From positions 1 through 23,585 of IMG/VR virus record IMGVR_UViG_3300039310_000125: a stretch of 23,585 bases of DNA; one strand, 5' to 3'. Each line of letters starts with the position of its first letter. The first letter of the stretch is position 1. This document shows positions 1,689 to 23,412 of this stretch, in pieces. The DNA is from a virus. The position numbers and the translations under genes are program-made. Below the pieces are notes generated by a model that was not told the DNA's origin, ran no database searches, and was given only the letters and a program-made list of their open reading frames with translations.

Positions 1689-1740
1689 AAGAGTGGTTCT
1701 AATAGAACCCTTTTATTGAGGTGCTATTAGAACCACTCTT
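1689..1740 (-). terminator. Strong intrinsic terminator ending the late operon
   Basis: A perfect 17-base-pair inverted repeat has arms at 1689-1705 and 1724-1740 around an 18-base loop. Read on the minus strand it is followed by a T-rich run (TTTTTATTT). It lies 30 bases past the stop codon at 1771. A third, shorter palindrome of the same family (GTTCTATTAGAAC, 1756-1768) lies between the stop codon and the hairpin and could form an alternative stem. The hairpin separates the virion-gene operon from promoter P3. Confidence 0.85.
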
Positions 1741-2345: not shown

Positions 2346-3077
2346 TTAAATTTTTGTCAAATCAGATTGTAAATCTGCCAAAGCTACATGATCAGGATTC
2401 ACACCATTATTTATCCAGTCTTGTGATAAGACGGCAAAAGCTTCATCACAGTAGGCATCATAAAATGCCCAACTCATTTGCAATAAAGCACCCCAAGTTA
2501 TTACAGTAATCCAACGAGGATCATATTTTACAGCTAATACACAATGTCCACCCCAACTACCTGGAGCTCCTTTACCACTAATTTTTGATGGAACTTGCCA
2601 ACATTTAGCTCCTTGAACTGTAAGTGGCAAAGCAATTCCTAAATATGCACCACCAAATAAATAAATTGAATCTTGTAATTCTGTATGGTTTTTAGGTTCA
2701 AGAGATGCATAAGCTCCAATTTTATGTCCGGCAATTCCAGTTTGGCGAGAATAATTAAGAACATCATTCAAATTTGCGCCTTGATCTGTATTGGGATCGC
2801 TTGGTGTATATCCTGTAATAGCTGAATATGCGGCAATAACTTGAGCATCTGAAGGAATAAAAGGTGAACCACAATTGGTTGTCCAATCTTGGATAAAATG
2901 TCCCATTCCAGCACAAGTACAATCGCCAACTGTATCATTTTTCATCATTGGCCAATTTGCTACTTTAGTTGTCCAATCTACAGTTGACGGAGATATGGGT
3001 AAACTGGAAGTAAAATATTTGGCTAATTTTAAATCTCTTGAATCGTAACGAGGTTCTTTTTTCCCTAATTTAAACAT
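2346..3077 (-). CDS. Papain-like (C1-fold) cysteine peptidase family protein, 243 residues
   Basis: The sequence matches a family common in soil bacteria and some phages. It has an N-terminal propeptide-like segment, a Gly-Asp-Cys-Thr-Cys-Ala motif at 51-56 (catalytic Cys probably Cys55), a Gly-Gly-His at 176-178 (catalytic His) and a Thr-Trp-Gly motif at 194-196. The last replaces the papain Asn-Ser-Trp-Gly, so the third catalytic residue is unusual. No signal peptide is visible. ATG 3077 was chosen because the only longer start is a TTG at 3092 further inside the preceding gene; with ATG the overlap with the patatin gene is 13 bases. Its place behind the patatin gene and before a secreted protein suggests a virion or lysis-related role on host envelope proteins. 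Activity is inferred from motifs only. Confidence 0.75.
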   Translation of the reverse strand: MFKLGKKEPRYDSRDLKLAKYFTSSLPISPSTVDWTTKVANWPMMKNDTVGDCTCAGMGHFIQDWTTNCGSPFIPSDAQVIAAYSAITGYTPSDPNTDQGANLNDVLNYSRQTGIAGHKIGAYASLEPKNHTELQDSIYLFGGAYLGIALPLTVQGAKCWQVPSKISGKGAPGSWGGHCVLAVKYDPRWITVITWGALLQMSWAFYDAYCDEAFAVLSQDWINNGVNPDHVALADLQSDLTKI

Positions 3078-3967
3078 AAAATTTTTGTCCAATCTATAGT
3101 TGTAGCTGCTTGAGTACCAATACTTAACAATTCTTGAATAGCATCCGTATCAGCCATATCAATAGCACAAGGTAATTCCCAATCAAATTTTTGTTGAAGG
3201 TTTGGCCATTGTCTTTGAACCGCAGAATCTACCCAATTTTCTGAAGTATCGACCAAAGTATCTGTAGCCCATTCTATTGTAGCTATTAATCCATTTGGTG
3301 GTGTATTTCCAGAAGAATAATATCCTGTTCCTAATGTAATTAATTTTGTAAATTCGGGACGAAATGAATCATATTGGAACATTTCAACACATGCTTGATA
3401 TGAAGGATTTGCTAAACAACCAGTCCCACCATCAAAAAAATTGATTCTATTTCCTTTAATTAAAATTGGCCAACAATCGAAATAAGTAGGAGCACATGCG
3501 CTTGCAATAGCAGCATCCAATAATTTAATATTACCAGTAGTTTTAGCATTTGTGGTTTTATCTTTTACAAAAAACCAATTGTGTCCATTCACAGCAGTGG
3601 CATTGATGCAAACCCCAATAGGACAATCATTTAATACCCAAGAGGCTTTAGAACCAAAAATTATTTTTAAAACCTTATAAAGATTTTCCGGATCAAATTT
3701 ATAACCTTTAGTTATTTGTTTTGCATCTCCTAATACACCCGATGGAGTGAAAATTTTATCAGATTGTAAAGCATAAACTTCAAGGAGATTTTGAGCAGGA
3801 ATACCGACTGCTATTCCTGCGGCTAATAATGCTCCAGTACTTGTTCCTGAAACATAATCAAAAAATTGATTTGTCAGTTTACCAGTTTGTTTTTCTAAAG
3901 CGGCCAGAACCGAACAAGGAATAATACCTCGGATTCCACCACCACATATAGCAAGAGAATTTTTCAT
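3065..3967 (-). CDS. Patatin-like phospholipase, 300 residues
   Basis: All patatin landmarks are visible: the oxyanion-loop motif Gly-Gly-Gly-Ile-Arg-Gly at 9-14, the nucleophile elbow Gly-Thr-Ser-Thr-Gly at 41-45 (Ser43) and the catalytic Asp in Asp-Gly-Gly at 179-181. The length fits the single-domain bacterial family, which hydrolyses acyl esters of membrane lipids. There is no signal peptide, so it acts inside the cell, is released at lysis, or travels with the virion. ATG 3967 directly follows the TAA of the upstream gene without a gap, and no Shine-Dalgarno is visible, so translation probably depends on coupling. The 3' end overlaps the peptidase gene. Substrate and timing cannot be read from the sequence. 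Confidence 0.9.
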   Translation of the reverse strand: MKNSLAICGGGIRGIIPCSVLAALEKQTGKLTNQFFDYVSGTSTGALLAAGIAVGIPAQNLLEVYALQSDKIFTPSGVLGDAKQITKGYKFDPENLYKVLKIIFGSKASWVLNDCPIGVCINATAVNGHNWFFVKDKTTNAKTTGNIKLLDAAIASACAPTYFDCWPILIKGNRINFFDGGTGCLANPSYQACVEMFQYDSFRPEFTKLITLGTGYYSSGNTPPNGLIATIEWATDTLVDTSENWVDSAVQRQWPNLQQKFDWELPCAIDMADTDAIQELLSIGTQAATTIDWTKILCLN

Positions 3968-4201
3968 TTAAGCAACCATATACGTTTTGACTAATTGTTT
4001 CAAGCCATCTAATTCGGATCGTAATTCACTTATTTGATCTATTGTATTATTCAATAATTTCTTTTCTTCCAAAATTCTAGCTTTTTGTATTCGATAATGA
4101 GATAATGCTTGTTTATCTAAATTCACAACTCCCATTGAACTGGTATGGCGTGCAAGGTTGGCATTATTATCAATTTTAATATATTCTGGTAATAGTGACA
4201 T
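3968..4201 (-). CDS. Small coiled-coil virion-associated-type protein, 77 residues
   Basis: Starting at ATG 4201 the protein has an N-terminal Leu-Pro-Glu-Tyr-Ile-Lys-Ile segment, a middle containing Asn-Leu-Ala-Arg and Gly-Val-Val-Asn-Leu-Asp, and a charged helix from about residue 30 to 72 with heptad-like Leu/Ile spacing. Small proteins with this layout lie beside large structural genes in T4-like phages. A longer frame reaches ATG 4270 but would overlap the preceding gene by 50 bases and adds an unlikely Trp/His-rich segment, so the shorter start is preferred. No clear Shine-Dalgarno is present; a CATAAATA lies 16 bases upstream. It ends exactly where the patatin gene begins. Function unknown, perhaps an assembly aid or linker for the DUF4815 protein. 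Confidence 0.65.
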   Translation of the reverse strand: MSLLPEYIKIDNNANLARHTSSMGVVNLDKQALSHYRIQKARILEEKKLLNNTIDQISELRSELDGLKQLVKTYMVA

Positions 4202-4220
4202 AAAAATAATACACCAATAT

Positions 4221-7200
4221 TTATGATTCCAGAGCAATGCACCGGAACTGTTGACAGAGTGGTACAGCACTAGAATTTGTGGATCTTAAAACTACTTTAA
4301 TTGCAAACTGTGTAAAGTCTGGTAATGGACCTAAAGTATCAGTTTGCCAATAATAATCTTTAAAATCTGTCGAATTTTGTGCAGGTGAAAAATCTGTATT
4401 AGGATCTGGTAGAATTAATACATAGGGTTGTGAAGTAAATGTGGCATTTGTATTTGTTGGTAAAATTTTATAATAAACATCCACTTGTGCTGCATAAGGC
4501 CACATTACTGTTAACCAAACTTGAAGGCTATTTGCGGTTGTGGCTAAAGTTACAGGTAATGTAATATATTTTGCAGCATCAGTTGCTCCTTGATTAATAG
4601 TTTCAGACACATATATAGGTTCAACACCAGCAGGAGAACTGGCAGGATTTGTAGCAGTAATACGGTTGTCAATAAGATTACTGATTAATAAAGCTGAAAT
4701 TCGGGTTAAATCAATCATAGGAGAAAGATTATCAGATGTAGATGTCAAATTAATTTCCCAAACTAAACTCTTATTTGCAAATGCGGTTCCATGATTTATT
4801 AAATATTGTTCATTTACCGCGGATGCTACTAATTGTGGTTGTGATAAATTAAAATTAACATTAGGTACAAATTGTGTAAATGGAAATGTTCCAGAAACAA
4901 TATATTCATATGGAATTTGGGTTCCATCGGCTGATGTTTCTGAAATACCACGTAAATAATAATTTGTAGATGTTCCTGAAAAATTTAATTCATTTACAAT
5001 TGGCATCATTACATCATATGGATAATTTTGTGTAACTGAACAAGAAACTCCAGTATAACCAGATGAACTTGCATCATCGGCAACATTACTTGCATTGACA
5101 ATAAAAATGGTATAAGAATTTAATTCTACATTCTTAATTTGATAGGTTCTGGATCCTACTACATTATCAGCAATAGAAATGCCTGAAGTCCATCCAGAAG
5201 CTCTAAAAGCACCAGAACTTGTAGGAATAATATCACTTACAGGAATTCCATTATAACTAGCGGCCCAATTAGCATTTCCTACTCCTGGAGGAATTGTTAA
5301 TGTCACTAAACTTCCGGCAGGCATTCCATGATTTGGATGTAAAATACGAATTACATTTGTACCATTATAAGTTATCATTGATAAATTAGGTAAGGTAAGA
5401 GTTGGTAAAGTAGGATTTTCTACAATTAAAGTTCCAACTTTTAAATAATCAAAAACTGCACGATATAATGTAAATTTATAAGCTTCACCTGGTGAAGGAA
5501 CCCAAGTACTTGCATTTTGAGATTTAAACATTGAACCTGCATAAGGTACTTGAGAAATTAATATATCGGTATTAAGTGAATAATCTCCTAATAAAGCGGT
5601 CCAAATAAAATATGCATTACTATTGGATAATAAAACAATTGCATATTCTTCACCTTGTTGTAAATAAACTGGAGATGGAAATGCAAAATTTGTTTTTTTT
5701 GCACCATTTACCGGATCAACATTTATTTGGCTTGGATTTAAAACAACAGTACTATAAGGAACAACTGTTTGTGTAGGTGTTCCATTTACCATTGTTCGAA
5801 TTTGTAAAGTTACTGGAATGGTAGGATCTTTAGTAGCAAAATAAAGATCAATTGAAGTAGCACAGAAACCACCTTGCAATGTTCCGACTAAAAATGCTTG
5901 TGCTAATGGATCGACATATCCTGCACCACCAACAATAACATAAGTAGTTATTTGATTTGTTGATTGAACTGCACCAGTTTGGGTAACTTGTTGCGTTTGT
6001 AGTTCAGGAACTCCAATTGAAGTAATTGTTTCTTGATCATTATCTAATGTTCCTGAAGCAATATAATTTGCTTGAGCATAAGAAGTGATATTTGCTCCAA
6101 CATTATTTATATCATTAACTAAGGAAAATATTCTGGTACCTGTTCTAAATTGAACTGTAGATGTTGATGGATTAGGTAAGGCAAAAACACCAGAAACCAT
6201 ACCATTTGCATCTGACATTAATTTCTCACCTAATGTTCCTCCAGTTGGAGTACAAAATGAACTAACTGGAGTAATATCCATAAATGCCCAAAATTGTGTA
6301 AGTGGTTTTAATCCTTTAGCAACGAAACTAATATTATTTGCACGGCAATAAGGAACAACTCCAGTACTAACAATTTTATTATCAATTGTTTGTGTTGGTA
6401 CATTTACTAATGTAGTTTGGGTTCCATTTCTCGTTTGTTGAGATAACGTTGTAGTTGTACTTGCTAAAGTATTGGTTGGAAGAACTGGAACTCCTTGGGC
6501 TGCTGCACTACCTACAGCACCCATAATGGAAGTATCACTATTTCCTCCTGGGCCAACATTAATATTATTTGGATTACTTACACTTGTTGAAACACCTATC
6601 CAATTTGTTGTCCAAGCATTCCAAACCGTACCTAAAATATTATCTGCTTGGTCTTGTGCTTGTGTTGCATTAAATAAAGTATTATCAGTTATTGTAATAT
6701 CTGGTAAATAATCTACTGCAATCCATGTATCGGTTGCAGGAGTTAATGATATAGATCCTGCCCATGCAAAAATATTATATGGATTAATATTTTCTTGGCG
6801 TGAAGCAAGAGGTTGTGTAATAATTGGGCTTTCAGTATATGGTAATGTTGCTATATTATTTAATGGTTTTAATGTATTAACTTCAATATTATCGCTTTCT
6901 ACTGAATCATATTGCATATTTACTGAATTAGTTACATATTCTGGCCGCATGATTCCATTCGCTGCATCAATTGAAAATGAAATATCTGGATTATTATAAT
7001 CTGCCACATTCATATTTTGGAAAGGATCTACAATAAAACCTGCTTGATAACGATTTAAACCTGTTGTAGCATCTGGAATTTGCATACTAGCTGTAGTTTG
7101 TTCTAATAAATTTAATGCTGTATAATATTCTAAATTCGTAATACGTTTATCTAAATTACCAATATCAGCCATTGTATATACTTTATTAGGTAATGTTTTG

Positions 7201-9896
7201 ATAGTAACACTACTTGGAACAAATGTATAAGCTGGTAATGTTAGAATAGCTAAAACCATTCCATCTGTTGGATCTGGTGGAGCAAGTGGTTGAAGTGCAG
7301 GTGTTCCTTGTAAATCAATAAATGCGCCTGAAGAAGACAGATATAATTTATCTACACGTCCTAAATAATATGAAAAATCTGTAACGATATCATCATTTGG
7401 TTTAACCAAACCACCAACAGTAGTATATGTAGGAACTGTAGGAACTGCCGCAACTGGTGGAAATACTGAAACATCATCCACTCTTGGACGGAAATCTAAA
7501 CAATCTCTTAAAGCATATAATGTACCACTAGAAACATAATAAGGAATTAATGCGTACCAATCTATTCCAGCAGGTGAAGTAATAAAATTATTATAACTAT
7601 TGACTGAGAAATAATCTCCAGAACTGTGGGTAAAATATCTAAATGTTATTGTAATAGAACTTGGAGCCGGATAACCTGGTAATAAAGTTAATTGTCCAAA
7701 ATCATAACGATTATCTCTTTGTCCATTATCTAATGTATACCAATCAGTTATATCAGTTGAAGTATCATTATCTATTATACTATCTAATGCAAAAATATCT
7801 GCTTTTCCTAAATTAACTAAACTAGTAGCTCCAGTATATAATGAAGAAAGAACCGTCAATGATTGAGAATTCAAAGTTTTGGTTTTTTCTGCGGCAATTT
7901 CTTTGATAACCGTAGCTGATAATTTAACAGTAGTTCCTACTGGCGCATTAAATGATATTTGAGAAAGACCTGAAGCAAAAGATGCACTTGGAACTATATC
8001 AATTAATGTTCCTGCACTACCCGCACTACTTCCTGTTTCAATAGTAGCTACATAATCTTCCACCGATAAAGCTTCAAAAATTTCATTTACTCCAGTAGCA
8101 AATGTAACTGTTCCATAAGTAGGATTTTGTGCTACTGCTGAAAAAACTTTCCGATAAGAATATGAAGTTGAAACATCATCGCTTAAATCACGAACTGTAG
8201 AAACCGTAGATTGTGGTAATTGATATAATAAAATATTATCTGGAGTATCGAATAATGTAATTCGTTGTAAAATATTTGCCGTTCCACTAGCACTTGTTAT
8301 AGGAACATTATTTGAAATTGCTATTGTTTTCGAACCACTTACTGTAACTGGTAATGTTAATAGGAAATTATTAATAGTATCCCAAGCATATATATTTTCA
8401 ACATATGTTCCATCAGTTATTGTATCCCCTACAGTGAAATCACCAACAACATTTACAATATCTAATTGTGAAAGAACATTTGCGGTTGTAGTTAAAACAC
8501 CATCGGAAACTGCAAAAGATCTAACATCTCCAATACCTAAACCTACCGCAGTAATATTAATATCTGCTAAGAATACTTCAAAAATTGGACCAGGATTTCC
8601 AATAGATTGAAAATTTCCTTCTTGAAATTGTAACCCACGAATTGTAGCTGTACCAATTACGCTGGTTAAAGGAGCTACTCCATCTGTAACAATAGGTGTC
8701 CCATACAAATTAACACTTGGCCATTGATCGTAATTTGGTAAACCAAATAAGCGATTAATATAAACATAATTTCCAAGATAAGCTCTTGTATGACTATTTT
8801 GGTAAAAATTAGTTGTTCTTGCTTTATTGATTGGTAAGTATTGTTTAGAAATGGTTTGAATTCTATACCCATCAACATATGCTCTACCAGGTTCAACACC
8901 TAATGCTAATTGATCGGCTTGGCCGCCACCTGCACTTGTATAAATCCCACCATTACTACCCACTAATAAACTTTCATGCAAATCAAATCCAAAAGGAGAA
9001 ACAATAAAATTACCATTAGTTTCCATTGTTCTTTGAGCTAATGTAGTCATAATTTCGCTCAAAGCAGTATTTTGAACTTGTGTTTGAATCACTCCATTTT
9101 GAATCCGCATTAATTCGGTAAAATTATTATCTGCGGTAGCATTAATATCAATTGCAGTAAGATTCAGAACAATTTTATATCTATCTGCTCCAGGAGCCGC
9201 ATAATTTGGAGAACCAATTGCATTACTATTTAAAGAAGAATCAATTTCAGGTGTAACAATGGTTTCAATAGCTTCTAATCCCACCCGAACATTTGGAAAA
9301 GAATATCCTAATGGTGGAGGTGTTCCATTAACTGGAGAAAGAATTATGGTTTGTGATGCAACATCTAATAACATCCCGAAAATAAAATAAACACCTGCAG
9401 CAATAGAAGCTGAAGCCGTAACACCAGTAGAATTTGAAGATATAGCTTGTGCAATTCCTGTATTGGCGGGAAGAATATTTAATACTTCTCCATCTGCAAA
9501 TACTTTTGTTGTTCCGGAAGTACCTGAAGTGGTATATTGGATATAAATTACATTATTTGTTGAATCTACCGAAATAACTGTTGCTACTACTCCGGCAGAA
9601 TCTTGAATTTGGATTCCGGGAGTTAATGCTGCCCAATCAACTGGAACACTTGAATAATTCGGTAATACAATAACATAAGATTGTTGTTGATTATAAGTAA
9701 TTTGTCCTGGAGTAACCATTGCTCCATTTTGGAATACATATTGTCCAAATCGGGCAATTTGTTCAGCAATAATGGATTGTAATTGTGTCAATTCCCGTGC
9801 TTGAACAGGGTATCCTGGCCGAAAAAGAACTTTATAGAATTCTTTAGAAGGATTATAATCATCGTAAAATGGAGATGAAGCGAAAGTTAGTGGCAT
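4221..9896 (-). CDS. Giant DUF4815-type virion structural protein (tail fibre/baseplate periphery), 1891 residues
   Basis: The N-terminus shows the DUF4815 signature: a Tyr-Asp-Asp-Tyr-Asn-Pro-Ser-Lys start, then Phe-Arg-Pro-Gly-Tyr-Pro-Val-Gln-Ala-Arg-Glu-Leu and a Gly-Gln-Tyr-Val-Phe segment within the first 65 residues. Other family landmarks are Asp-Ile-Gly-Asn-Leu-Asp-Lys-Arg followed by Leu-Glu-Tyr-Tyr-Thr near 905-920, Phe-Arg-Thr-Gly-Thr-Arg near 1250, Asp-Pro-Leu-Ala-Gln near 1327, and Glu-Tyr-Ala-Ile-Val-Leu-Leu-Ser-Asn-Ser near 1415. The C-terminal 450 residues are Ser/Thr/Asn-rich beta sequence and may bind receptors or carry decorations. Related proteins of T4-like cyanophages are virion components. 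It is longer than the family members I know. Position after the gp8-like gene corresponds to the T4 gp9-gp12 fibre-attachment genes. No Shine-Dalgarno precedes ATG 9896, but TATAAATA lies five bases upstream. Confidence 0.9.
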   Translation of the reverse strand: MPLTFASSPFYDDYNPSKEFYKVLFRPGYPVQARELTQLQSIIAEQIARFGQYVFQNGAMVTPGQITYNQQQSYVIVLPNYSSVPVDWAALTPGIQIQDSAGVVATVISVDSTNNVIYIQYTTSGTSGTTKVFADGEVLNILPANTGIAQAISSNSTGVTASASIAAGVYFIFGMLLDVASQTIILSPVNGTPPPLGYSFPNVRVGLEAIETIVTPEIDSSLNSNAIGSPNYAAPGADRYKIVLNLTAIDINATADNNFTELMRIQNGVIQTQVQNTALSEIMTTLAQRTMETNGNFIVSPFGFDLHESLLVGSNGGIYTSAGGGQADQLALGVEPGRAYVDGYRIQTISKQYLPINKARTTNFYQNSHTRAYLGNYVYINRLFGLPNYDQWPSVNLYGTPIVTDGVAPLTSVIGTATIRGLQFQEGNFQSIGNPGPIFEVFLADINITAVGLGIGDVRSFAVSDGVLTTTANVLSQLDIVNVVGDFTVGDTITDGTYVENIYAWDTINNFLLTLPVTVSGSKTIAISNNVPITSASGTANILQRITLFDTPDNILLYQLPQSTVSTVRDLSDDVSTSYSYRKVFSAVAQNPTYGTVTFATGVNEIFEALSVEDYVATIETGSSAGSAGTLIDIVPSASFASGLSQISFNAPVGTTVKLSATVIKEIAAEKTKTLNSQSLTVLSSLYTGATSLVNLGKADIFALDSIIDNDTSTDITDWYTLDNGQRDNRYDFGQLTLLPGYPAPSSITITFRYFTHSSGDYFSVNSYNNFITSPAGIDWYALIPYYVSSGTLYALRDCLDFRPRVDDVSVFPPVAAVPTVPTYTTVGGLVKPNDDIVTDFSYYLGRVDKLYLSSSGAFIDLQGTPALQPLAPPDPTDGMVLAILTLPAYTFVPSSVTIKTLPNKVYTMADIGNLDKRITNLEYYTALNLLEQTTASMQIPDATTGLNRYQAGFIVDPFQNMNVADYNNPDISFSIDAANGIMRPEYVTNSVNMQYDSVESDNIEVNTLKPLNNIATLPYTESPIITQPLASRQENINPYNIFAWAGSISLTPATDTWIAVDYLPDITITDNTLFNATQAQDQADNILGTVWNAWTTNWIGVSTSVSNPNNINVGPGGNSDTSIMGAVGSAAAQGVPVLPTNTLASTTTTLSQQTRNGTQTTLVNVPTQTIDNKIVSTGVVPYCRANNISFVAKGLKPLTQFWAFMDITPVSSFCTPTGGTLGEKLMSDANGMVSGVFALPNPSTSTVQFRTGTRIFSLVNDINNVGANITSYAQANYIASGTLDNDQETITSIGVPELQTQQVTQTGAVQSTNQITTYVIVGGAGYVDPLAQAFLVGTLQGGFCATSIDLYFATKDPTIPVTLQIRTMVNGTPTQTVVPYSTVVLNPSQINVDPVNGAKKTNFAFPSPVYLQQGEEYAIVLLSNSNAYFIWTALLGDYSLNTDILISQVPYAGSMFKSQNASTWVPSPGEAYKFTLYRAVFDYLKVGTLIVENPTLPTLTLPNLSMITYNGTNVIRILHPNHGMPAGSLVTLTIPPGVGNANWAASYNGIPVSDIIPTSSGAFRASGWTSGISIADNVVGSRTYQIKNVELNSYTIFIVNASNVADDASSSGYTGVSCSVTQNYPYDVMMPIVNELNFSGTSTNYYLRGISETSADGTQIPYEYIVSGTFPFTQFVPNVNFNLSQPQLVASAVNEQYLINHGTAFANKSLVWEINLTSTSDNLSPMIDLTRISALLISNLIDNRITATNPASSPAGVEPIYVSETINQGATDAAKYITLPVTLATTANSLQVWLTVMWPYAAQVDVYYKILPTNTNATFTSQPYVLILPDPNTDFSPAQNSTDFKDYYWQTDTLGPLPDFTQFAIKVVLRSTNSSAVPLCQQFRCIALES

Positions 9897-15755: not shown

Positions 15756-16089
15756 CACAGAATACGTTGGGACTGGCCTGGTCTGCAAAATCAATTTCAA
15801 TTGTAGGTGCAGAAGGATATACAATAAAATCTCCATTTCTTCCGGCTGCTAATCCATTAACAAATACAGTTTTAGATCCAAACCCTAATATTGCAATTGG
15901 ATTTAAAGGATTAGGAATATCCCAATGATCTGTAACTCTATGCCATGGAAGCCCATTGACAAATACACTTGGAGACCCTTGTATATTTGGTTCTGGTGGA
16001 AGAGGAAAATTACCCGCAGATATATCACCTAATCGAACTGCACGTTTTATAGTTTGAACTTCAACATATAATGTATTAGATATTTGCAT
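15751..16089 (-). CDS. PAAR-repeat spike tip protein (112 residues)
   Basis: The protein shows the PAAR pattern of short beta-turn units. These are Arg-Leu-Gly-Asp near 19-22, Gly-Ser-Pro-Ser-Val-Phe-Val-Asn-Gly near 38-46, followed by His50 and His55, and a second Val-Phe-Val-Asn-Gly-Leu near 75-80 with a Gly-Arg-Asn-Gly-Asp turn. PAAR proteins cap the beta-helical spike with a sharp, usually metal-binding tip. The spike here would be the gp5-like protein at 19958-21151. A terminal Cys (residue 111) and the two histidines could hold the metal. Its ATG overlaps the stop of the preceding gene by one base (TAATG), so translation is coupled. Length is typical for the phage members. Confidence 0.9.
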   Translation of the reverse strand: MQISNTLYVEVQTIKRAVRLGDISAGNFPLPPEPNIQGSPSVFVNGLPWHRVTDHWDIPNPLNPIAILGFGSKTVFVNGLAAGRNGDFIVYPSAPTIEIDFADQASPNVFCG

Positions 16090-17168
16090 TATGGATCCAA
16101 AATATGTACTGGTACATTTCCAATCATATTTATATCCATTGATGGTAAAATACCTTGCAATTCTTCAGGTGAAATAAAAATTGTAGGAATATTAATTCCA
16201 TTCCAAACTATAATACTAGTAGGTAAAAATCCCCATCCAATACAAGTTAAAGTAACATTTGGTTGAAACTCTGGTAATATATTTGGATAAATAGCAAATA
16301 AAACTGGATGATGTTCATCAAGGATTTGAAAAGAACAAATATCTAAAGATTGTGTTTTAATTGTTATGGAAGATTTTTCTACAATTTGTATTTGGCAATT
16401 ATCATAAAGGTGAAATCTATAAAGAGCTACTAATATTTCATTATATAATTGAGTTATTCTTGTGTTTGATGGTTCAGATACCAAAGTTTCATTATATAAT
16501 GAAGTTATCCTAGCATCCGATGGTTCAGATACCAAAGTTTCATTATATAATGAAGTTATCCTAGCATCCGATGGTTCAGATACTAATATTTCATTATATA
16601 ATGCAGTTATTAAAGCGTGTTGTGTTGTACCATATAACGAAGAACTTTCAGAAATTTGGATATCTAAAGTATCAGAATCTAAAATCCTAGAAGTAATATG
16701 TATAGAAGAACTTTCAGAAATTTGGATATCTAAAGAATCAAAATCAATTATAGGAAATTCTATAATACGATTTGAACTTTCAGAAATTTGAATAGATAAA
16801 TTATCTGTATCATTTATTGGATAAATGGGAACAGAACTAGGAATTCTTAAAATATATTTAAGATGAGGTAAATATTGTCCAACATAAGAACCAGAATTAA
16901 TAATTAAAGTTTTAGTGGCCGTAACCATTAAAACTGTAGATGGAGAATCTGAAGGAAGAGTATTAGTAGAAGGACTCCGATGTAATATTTCTGTTTGTAC
17001 ATCGGTATCGACAATATTTTTTAAAAGAGGTAAATATTGTCCAACATAAGAACCAGAATTAATAATTAAAGTTTTAGTGGCCGTAACCATTAAAACTGTA
17101 GATGGAGAATCTGAAGGAAGAGTACTGGTAGATGGATTACGGTAGGTAATTTCTTCGTAAGTACTCAA
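16089..17168 (-). CDS. Internally repetitive tail protein with C-terminal IPT/TIG domain (359 residues)
   Basis: Three families of repeats precede a C-terminal Ig-like domain. Family A: two copies of about 41 residues (10-50 and 64-104), nearly identical. Family B: three 22-residue units centred on Ile-Gln-Ile-Ser-Glu-Ser-Ser (126, 148, 170), with a degenerate relative near 259. Family C: three 17-residue units Ile-Thr-Ser-Leu-Tyr-Asn-Glu-Thr-Leu-Val-Ser-Glu-Pro-Ser (187-237) plus a partial fourth. Residues about 293-358 fit an IPT/TIG domain (Ile-Tyr-Pro-Asn near the start, Gly-Trp-Gly-Phe, Val-Trp-Asn-Gly). The start is TTG 17168, preceded by GTGAGA; no ATG exists before the first repeat. 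It overlaps the PAAR gene by one base. Likely a baseplate-tip accessory or adhesin; the function is inferred from position only. Confidence 0.78.
   Translation of the reverse strand: MSTYEEITYRNPSTSTLPSDSPSTVLMVTATKTLIINSGSYVGQYLPLLKNIVDTDVQTEILHRSPSTNTLPSDSPSTVLMVTATKTLIINSGSYVGQYLPHLKYILRIPSSVPIYPINDTDNLSIQISESSNRIIEFPIIDFDSLDIQISESSSIHITSRILDSDTLDIQISESSSLYGTTQHALITALYNEILVSEPSDARITSLYNETLVSEPSDARITSLYNETLVSEPSNTRITQLYNEILVALYRFHLYDNCQIQIVEKSSITIKTQSLDICSFQILDEHHPVLFAIYPNILPEFQPNVTLTCIGWGFLPTSIIVWNGINIPTIFISPEELQGILPSMDINMIGNVPVHILDP
16450..16602. repeat. 51-bp tandem repeat, three units, in the IPT-domain gene
   Basis: Units at 16450-16500, 16501-16551 and 16552-16602. The second and third are identical over their first 31 bases and differ at a few later positions; the first is more diverged. 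A partial further unit ends at 16449. Each unit codes for 17 residues, so copy-number change keeps the frame. Confidence 0.92.
16642..16797. repeat. 66-bp direct repeat, three diverged units, in the IPT-domain gene
   Basis: The block GAACTTTCAGAAATTTG starts at 16642, 16708 and 16774, giving a 66-base period (22 codons). The first two copies stay similar for about 27 bases; the linkers are diverged, so this family is older than the 162-base duplication. Confidence 0.88.
16865..17142. repeat. 162-bp-period direct duplication with 98 identical bases, in the IPT-domain gene
   Basis: Bases 16865-16962 are identical to 17027-17124, including every synonymous position. The similarity continues imperfectly for about 18 bases beyond. 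The period is 54 codons. Such identity implies recent duplication or ongoing gene conversion. Confidence 0.93.
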
Positions 17169-22335: not shown

Positions 22336-23412
22336 TTAAAATGAACTAACAGGAATAAATTGGAAATTCACATTAAAGAACATTTCAAGTCCTGATAAAA
22401 CATTATATGTTGTTGATACAACCAATAACCCAGTTTGATTTAATAAAGCAACATCATTTAAAAGGAATGAAGTATGCCCTTTAGCTGCAAGTGTTAAAGA
22501 TTTTGTTTCTAATATAGTACCATCAATTCCATAATAAGTCAATGATATATTAGATGAATAATTTAATGAATTTCGTAATGCTAATCCAGTTTGGCGACCA
22601 TTTGTATTATCATACCAGAAATTCAAAGTTTTATTCAATGTAGATGGTGTATAAGCTGAATCATATGGAACAGAATTCAGAGTTTCATATATAACTGTTA
22701 AACCAACTGTAGGACTTCCAACTTCAGGAGTAATTTCAGCCGATCCAGTTAATGTATTTGGATTTGTTGGATCTTCTAAAATAACATTAGTTGTAGAAAA
22801 TGCTTGGATAGGAACTGTTACTTTAAATTCTGGATTAGTATAATCACGGAGTTTAAAGAGAGAAGAATATCCAGCTTCATTATAGAAATTTATATCTACC
22901 AAGCTTATAGTAGATGTTGGATTTGTGAGTTGGAAAATAGTACGCCATCCATAACCTGAAGTTAAATGAGGAACAACTAATGTATTAGATTGAGGAAAAT
23001 CATTTAATCCACAAGCTACAGTTAAATTGATAGTAAATCCCCCTTGTTGTGTATTTTGAGGAGTAGTTATATCATTTATTTCAATTGGAACTGTATATGT
23101 TGCTGGTGCTAAATTATTAGCATTAACTTCAATATCAAATACTGCGCTTTGCCCCGGTTCTAAAGATCCAGGATTTGTAGAACCCGGCGTAACTGGTACA
23201 ACAGAATATGCAGGATTATATCCAGCTATAATTTGATATGCATGATAACTAACAGTTGTTGCTGGTAAAGAAACTGTCAATTGTGAAATGACTTGTATTC
23301 CACCAGCACAAGGATCTGCGGTTGCATTAACCGTTGTTGGTGAAAATGTAAACGGATATGATTGTGCGAATAATCCCATTGCAAAAGCAAGGAATAATAA
23401 AATCGTCTTCAT
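22336..23412 (-). CDS. Secreted protein with signal peptide, acidobacterial-type beta-sandwich (358 residues)
   Basis: Residues 1-16 are a signal peptide ending in Leu-Phe-Ala before Gln17. Residues about 18-135 look like an Ig-like/abnormal-spindle-type beta-sandwich (Ser-Leu-Glu-Pro-Gly-Gln-Ser-Ala-Val-Phe-Asp-Ile followed by Ala-Pro-Ala-Thr-Tyr-Thr-Val-Pro-Ile-Glu-Ile). Residues about 140-358 form two related segments with Trp-Arg-Thr-Ile-Phe-Gln-Leu-Thr-Asn-Pro, Asn-Phe-Tyr-Asn-Glu-Ala-Gly and Leu-Ala-Leu-Arg-Asn-Ser. This arrangement I know from secreted proteins of Acidobacteria. Two cysteines (near 35 and 134) could pair after export. The ATG follows the stop of the upstream gene after one base. 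A host-derived gene in a phage tail operon is the likely reading; role unknown. Confidence 0.8.
   Translation of the reverse strand: MKTILLFLAFAMGLFAQSYPFTFSPTTVNATADPCAGGIQVISQLTVSLPATTVSYHAYQIIAGYNPAYSVVPVTPGSTNPGSLEPGQSAVFDIEVNANNLAPATYTVPIEINDITTPQNTQQGGFTINLTVACGLNDFPQSNTLVVPHLTSGYGWRTIFQLTNPTSTISLVDINFYNEAGYSSLFKLRDYTNPEFKVTVPIQAFSTTNVILEDPTNPNTLTGSAEITPEVGSPTVGLTVIYETLNSVPYDSAYTPSTLNKTLNFWYDNTNGRQTGLALRNSLNYSSNISLTYYGIDGTILETKSLTLAAKGHTSFLLNDVALLNQTGLLVVSTTYNVLSGLEMFFNVNFQFIPVSSF

Follow-up and report, generated by a model that had tools for sequence, protein, structure and literature searches.

What are genes for a phospholipase and a peptidase doing at the end of a phage baseplate operon? 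The question is raised by a virus record of 23.6 kb, analysed over its whole length of 23,585 nucleotides (hereafter the window), which carries the baseplate and tail operon of a T4-like myovirus with all genes on the minus strand. The operon is anchored by a giant DUF4815/VrlC protein that has full-length matches at 33-35% in T4-like pelagiphages and is followed, in every relative reaching that far, by a small coiled-coil protein. In the window these two are succeeded by a patatin, a papain-fold peptidase and an outer-membrane-barrel-like (OM-like) protein (Table 1). A VrlC of 100% identity is present in four more IMG/VR records (3300009636, 3300037993, 3300041418 and 3300018017), indicating that the phage recurs across samples.

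Table 1. Features of the gene array at the 3′ end of the baseplate operon
Feature	Coordinates	Strand	Evidence
DUF4815/VrlC giant baseplate-type protein, 1891 aa, operon anchor	4221..9896	-	PF16075 E=1.8e-59; phrog_358
Small coiled-coil protein, 77 aa, ATG start	3968..4201	-	phrog_473 "virion structural protein"
Patatin-like phospholipase, 300 aa, stop TAG	3065..3967	-	Ser43/Asp179 dyad, CapV-like fold, acidobacterial clade
Papain-fold cysteine peptidase, 243 aa from ATG 3077 (alternative TTG 3092)	2346..3077	-	phrog_19005
OM-like protein, signal-peptide-like, 187 aa	1771..2334	-	signal peptide and barrel judged by eye
Terminator-like hairpin with T-run, 62 bp past the cassette	1695..1709	-	weak: number of sites equals the shuffle mean

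An earlier, sequence-only reading had drawn attention to the three closely packed genes behind the DUF4815 gene, and its account of their coordinates, their junctions and the catalytic motifs of both enzymes proved accurate, the motifs being conserved in relatives as well. The TAA of the coiled-coil gene ends at 3968 and abuts the patatin ATG at 3967, the patatin and peptidase genes overlap by 13 bases (3065-3077), and a gap of only 11 bases (2335-2345) precedes the OM-like gene. Starting the peptidase at the alternative TTG would extend it to 248 aa and the overlap to 28 bases, although the ATG is favoured because the usual N-terminus of the family is M-x-KLG. Same-strand order, tight junctions, purifying selection and conserved catalytic residues together exclude the possibility of chance ORFs, and we have high confidence in the identity of the parts. 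A scan for T4 late promoters (TATAAATA) was uninformative, with 6 sites seen versus 7.6 expected.

By score, motifs and modelled fold the 300-residue protein is classed as a patatin-like phospholipase, for which lipid acyl hydrolase activity is predicted. It matches PF01734 with 73.7 bits (E=2.9e-20; curated cut-off 27.7) and carries GGGIRG at residues 9-14, GTSTG at 41-45 with Ser43 of the catalytic dyad, and DGG at 179-181 with Asp179. An alignment of 19 relatives retains the catalytic letters as well as the invariant positions of GGGxRG, GTSTG and DGG, and a dN/dS of about 0.32 against the patatin of a sister phage indicates purifying selection. In Foldseek the structure model (pLDDT 86) comes closest to CapV and plant patatin, with E values of about 1e-17 or better, and inspection by eye revealed no signal peptide or membrane anchor. 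The sister-phage protein (L003:8001-8828) is shorter by approximately 27 residues, corresponding to window residues 241-268, which are kept in host relatives.

CapV-type CBASS lipases provide the best PADLOC, NCBIfam and PDB matches of the patatin, and they (PDB 8zr9, 9kh6) represent the closest solved fold, with the Ser-Asp dyad in common. However, the CBASS_lipase score of 134.9 bits falls below the curated equivalog cut-off of 200, no CD-NTase is apparent among the ORFs of the window or, judged by eye, among the listed neighbours of host relatives, and the protein belongs to an acidobacterial clade of its own. Membership among the CBASS effector lipases was rejected on the score and the missing CD-NTase partner.

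The second enzyme is a papain-like cysteine peptidase of the clan CA fold as far as sequence and model can tell, with Cys and His in place. It has no match in Pfam and does not reach the cut-off of papain family C1 (PF00112), whereas phrog_19005 matches it over its full length (E=8.1e-37, residues 11-245 of 248). Cys58, His183, Asn52 and Trp200 (numbered from the TTG) are kept in 100% of 69 relatives. The model (pLDDT 93.3) matches xylellain (PDB 3ois, E=1.5e-10) and papain (E about 6e-7), and the likeness to these C1 enzymes extends to the catalytic Cys and His and to the Trp-Gly after the third catalytic position. In contrast, identity to them is only 17%, and the catalytic Asn that precedes SWG in papain is replaced by Ile or Val, followed by Thr-Trp-Gly. 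Again, no signal peptide or membrane anchor was seen by eye.

Relatives of this peptidase occur in at least 253 IMG/VR contigs, so the enzyme itself is common in viruses and its pairing with a patatin is the rare part. Phages of Komagataeibacter and MW202816, where the protein is annotated as a "cysteine protease", encode full-length homologues with invariant Cys and His, but the neighbour is not a patatin; a general pairing of patatin with phrog_19005 was rejected, as a patatin was found at none of the other peptidase loci examined. In MW202816 the gene and an Amidase_2 gene overlap where a tail operon ends, and the "endolysin" of an Alicyclobacillus phage joins a C1 papain to a glycosidase-like domain and a peptidoglycan-binding one. 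The family was also considered as a marker of lysis cassettes. A first count of near neighbours looked promising (six wall hydrolases, and holins), but about 6 of 102 near neighbours being wall hydrolases compares with about 5 of 102 control proteins located 4-6 genes away, and the idea was dropped.

A survey anchored on VrlC and the coiled coil yielded six more members of the lineage, of which five are readable beyond the slot that follows. This slot is variable. The window and L001 carry the patatin, the phrog_19005 peptidase and the OM-like protein. A sister phage (L002 and L003, the former ending inside the patatin) carries a patatin that is 66% identical, a xylellain-like C1 peptidase, an OM-like protein and a lipoprotein-like gene. 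L027 has the peptidase and the OM-like protein but no patatin, L100 has the OM-like protein only, and L103 and L107 have other small genes. Neither enzyme is encoded anywhere in the three near-complete relatives of 176-180 kb (L100, L103 and L107). A radical-SAM-like protein with the motif CNFHCPYCRS is conserved near the slot in L027, L100 and L107 and was not seen in the window.

The sister-phage peptidase reaches the PF00112 cut-off and matches 3ois with E=3e-39. It shares no BLAST similarity longer than ten residues with the peptidase of the window, and hhalign (95%, E=3e-8) indicates that the two are distantly related. From these gene orders, the patatin is evidently an insertion into a variable slot, and a papain-fold enzyme stands behind it in both phages that have it. 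This bears on the earlier suggestion that the pairing would be refuted if homologues of the two genes never co-occurred elsewhere: a patatin beside the phrog_19005 family was seen in two records of this phage alone, but in the sister phage a different papain-fold peptidase accompanies the patatin.

Such variability could mean that the slot simply gathers host-derived genes that are singly useful, with no joint function of patatin and peptidase. The content of the slot differs from one relative to the next, as expected for independent cargo, the peptidase family travels alone in more than 250 viral contigs, and the patatins of other viruses have no peptidase neighbour. Nevertheless, we consider this explanation rather unlikely, since two different papain-fold peptidases lie directly behind the same patatin in two sister phages, the start and stop of the pair overlap, and a conserved OM-like gene follows.

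Thirteen of 237 genomes of one acidobacterial family, whose genome G008 includes a contig titled Bryobacterales bacterium, encode patatins in ordinary chromosomal settings. Almost all of these match over their full length, with identities of 40-59%. Both T4-like phage patatins nest among these chromosomal proteins with support of 100/100, and the hosts of this T4-like group are probably Acidobacteriota (Bryobacterales). When six further viral patatins are added, the tree shows no fewer than four switches between viral and chromosomal location inside the acidobacterial clade; the gene has therefore passed between the two repeatedly. The patatin is very probably an optional, host-derived cargo. 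No close patatins were found among annotated phages, and a literature search on patatins in acidobacterial phages returned no usable paper. A secreted protein at 22336-23412 of the window, with a weak DUF5719 match, has a C-terminal part that resembles proteins in 66 of the 237 genomes, which supports the host assignment. The GC content of the phage is 32%, compared with 60-67% in the patatin-bearing family (loci L215-L226); the patatin, with a GC3 of 15%, is fully phage-adapted, so either it was acquired long ago or the host has been assigned wrongly.

The six added proteins came from a scan with an acidobacterial patatin profile, which recovered patatins of the same clade in six additional viruses from soil. 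A phrog_7 endolysin gene shares 4 bp with the patatin gene of L262, and such a gene lies 277 bp downstream of the patatin in L260. L259 and L261 both read endolysin, recombinase, TerS, patatin and OM-like protein; TerL comes next in L259, and the sequence of L261 stops at this point. These OM-like proteins are homologous to that of the window (aligned HMM matches, E=1.3e-43 for L259 and E=5e-14 for L261). L259-L262 share a recombinase/terminase block and hence are not four independent cases, and none has a peptidase partner beside the patatin. L264 places its patatin between replication-type genes without any endolysin link, and in L263 the locus is cut by the contig end. A virus protein with a PEP-CTERM-like tail (L264:6894-7496) is encoded directly behind the patatin of L264.

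Relatives of the OM-like protein also occur in two genomes of the host family, beside a lysozyme in G466 and, by eye, beside a glucosaminidase/muramidase-like gene in G460, in loci that look like prophage lysis islands. Taken together, these arrangements connect patatin and OM-like protein with lysis modules outside the T4-like group, in viruses unrelated to it. The G466 island (L294, G466:C6:4000-22000, at 6435-9242) adjoins murB-like and other chromosomal genes and comprises a transmembrane/coiled-coil protein, an NlpC-like gene (by eye), the OM-like protein and a phage lysozyme; it may be what is left of a prophage, or a lysis cassette that has been domesticated. The assignment of the 200-aa gene before the OM-like gene to NlpC/P60 was not retained, as a PDB sequence search gave no confirmation.

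We tentatively favour the view that the genes form a cassette for envelope attack, optional and expressed late, that occupies the variable 3′ end of the T4-like baseplate operon, a reading that we hold to be distinctly possible if still short of probable; our confidence that patatin and peptidase act jointly is lower. The cassette would be transcribed together with the structural genes. Having no signal peptide, the patatin might deacylate phospholipids of the host either from the side of the cytoplasm or once a holin has opened the way, while the peptidase could cut peptidoglycan cross-links or envelope proteins and the OM-like protein could act in the outer membrane. The cassette would thereby speed or complete lysis alongside an ordinary endolysin encoded elsewhere by the phage.

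Late envelope attack is the best reading because patatins of the same clade lie in the endolysin/terminase region of another soil-virus group. It is supported further by the intact catalytic residues and folds, by OM-like homologues that follow the patatin in L259 and L261 and adjoin wall hydrolases in G466 and G460, and by the two distantly related papain-fold peptidases that hold the slot behind the patatin in sister phages. The peptidase relative overlapping an Amidase_2 gene, the papain fused within the Alicyclobacillus phage protein and a published proposal for phage WO (see below) point the same way. The reading is weakened because, by eye, both enzymes lack a signal peptide or anchor and no holin or endolysin was recognised within the 23.6 kb window, because the three near-complete relatives lack both enzymes, because comparison with the control shows no enrichment of the peptidase family near endolysins, and because L259-L262 are non-independent and devoid of the peptidase while the L264 patatin sits among replication-type genes.

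Alternatively, patatin and OM-like protein may remodel the host envelope, altering membrane lipids and surface so as to exclude other phages or retain progeny. The OM-like protein is present in four of six readable slots, including that of L100 where neither enzyme occurs, and the patatin derives from host chromosomes, in which it occurs on its own. This explanation is nonetheless unlikely, given that OM-like homologues adjoin peptidoglycan hydrolases and that the cassette closes a late structural operon.

The sequence-only reading had proposed that the pair could be virion-borne or lysis-time enzymes that attack the host envelope and replace the lysozyme missing from the gp5-like spike. Its lysis-time part agrees with the envelope-attack reading favoured here, but the replacement does not hold. 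Relatives without patatin and peptidase have gp5-like spikes of the same length (382-401 aa) that are equally free of lysozyme, and the long relatives encode T4-type lysozymes (PF00959) elsewhere: two genomes have stand-alone versions (142 and 270 aa), and all three have a lysozyme domain within an approximately 900-aa frame. A spike devoid of lysozyme is thus nothing unusual in this lineage. No M15 endolysin was found in the relatives. Delivery of virion-borne enzymes at entry would fit an operon shared with baseplate genes and an upstream small protein of a virion-protein family. We judge it very unlikely, as close relatives that share the baseplate set do without the enzymes, neither a tail fusion nor a packaging signal was seen, and the patatin of other viruses sits with endolysin and terminase rather than tail parts. 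A CBASS-like effector for phage-phage competition, or a cyclic-nucleotide decoy, is suggested by the CapV-type matches but is highly improbable in view of the sub-cut-off score, the absence of a CD-NTase in the window or named beside host relatives, and an active catalytic centre that would be unexpected in a decoy.

The closest precedent is phage WO of Wolbachia, for which a patatin-based lytic cassette has been proposed beside the tail module, in a slot that holds a GH108 endolysin in relatives (PMC9203015); the suggestion of patatin in lysis had been made earlier (PMC3173496). As in the window, the patatin is located at the tail module of a tailed phage that also has VrlC, and it is proposed to serve lysis or exit. 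However, the WO patatin was captured independently and shares no common descent with ours: the WO and megaphage patatins lie elsewhere in the tree, on separate well-supported branches. Phage WO pairs its patatin with a holin-like and an ankyrin protein, whereas the array in the window has a papain-fold peptidase and the OM-like protein. No holin-like transmembrane partner of the WO type was found in the window, the adjacent small protein being of phrog_473 with no hydrophobic segment by eye. WO also lacks an endolysin, whereas three long relatives of the window lineage carry PF00959 lysozymes, the genome of the window itself being incomplete.

The patatin-like phospholipases of megaphages (Mar_Mega_1, LR745206) have been described as an auxiliary gene (PMC9723777); that of LR745206 is likewise phage-encoded but only 25% identical. 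Mycobacteriophage LysB (PMC5707550) is a lipid-directed hydrolase within a lysis cassette and offers a functional analogy only, being an unrelated enzyme that acts on mycolyl-arabinogalactan. The papers on phage WO and megaphages do not describe a phage patatin with a papain-fold peptidase. Thus, the earlier remark that a lipase plus peptidase is not a standard phage module is fair for the pair, but tail-adjacent phage patatin had already been proposed for lysis in phage WO (PMC9203015), and the present array is a variant of that arrangement.

Lysis by phages of Gram-negative bacteria is usually told as a sequence of holin, endolysin and spanin, and Acidobacteriota are a dominant soil phylum. 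A broader and rather doubtful possibility is that viruses of Acidobacteriota share a phospholipase lysis module, composed of patatin, a wall or envelope hydrolase and an OM-barrel protein, which would replace spanins in opening the outer membrane, the T4-like lineage using a papain-fold peptidase instead of a muramidase. If this is true, phages that are not related to each other have repeatedly acquired patatin from acidobacterial chromosomes and retained it next to wall hydrolases, which would add a lipid-cutting step to lysis. The proposal made for phage WO would then gain weight, and the module would offer a handle on lysis in phages of Acidobacteriota.

Elsewhere in the window, the protein encoded at 16089-17168 contains internal duplications, with NPSTSTLPSDSPSTVLMVTATKTLIINSGSYVGQYLP present nearly twice and ARITSLYNETLVSEPSD several times, and is perhaps a tail-fibre or linker repeat.
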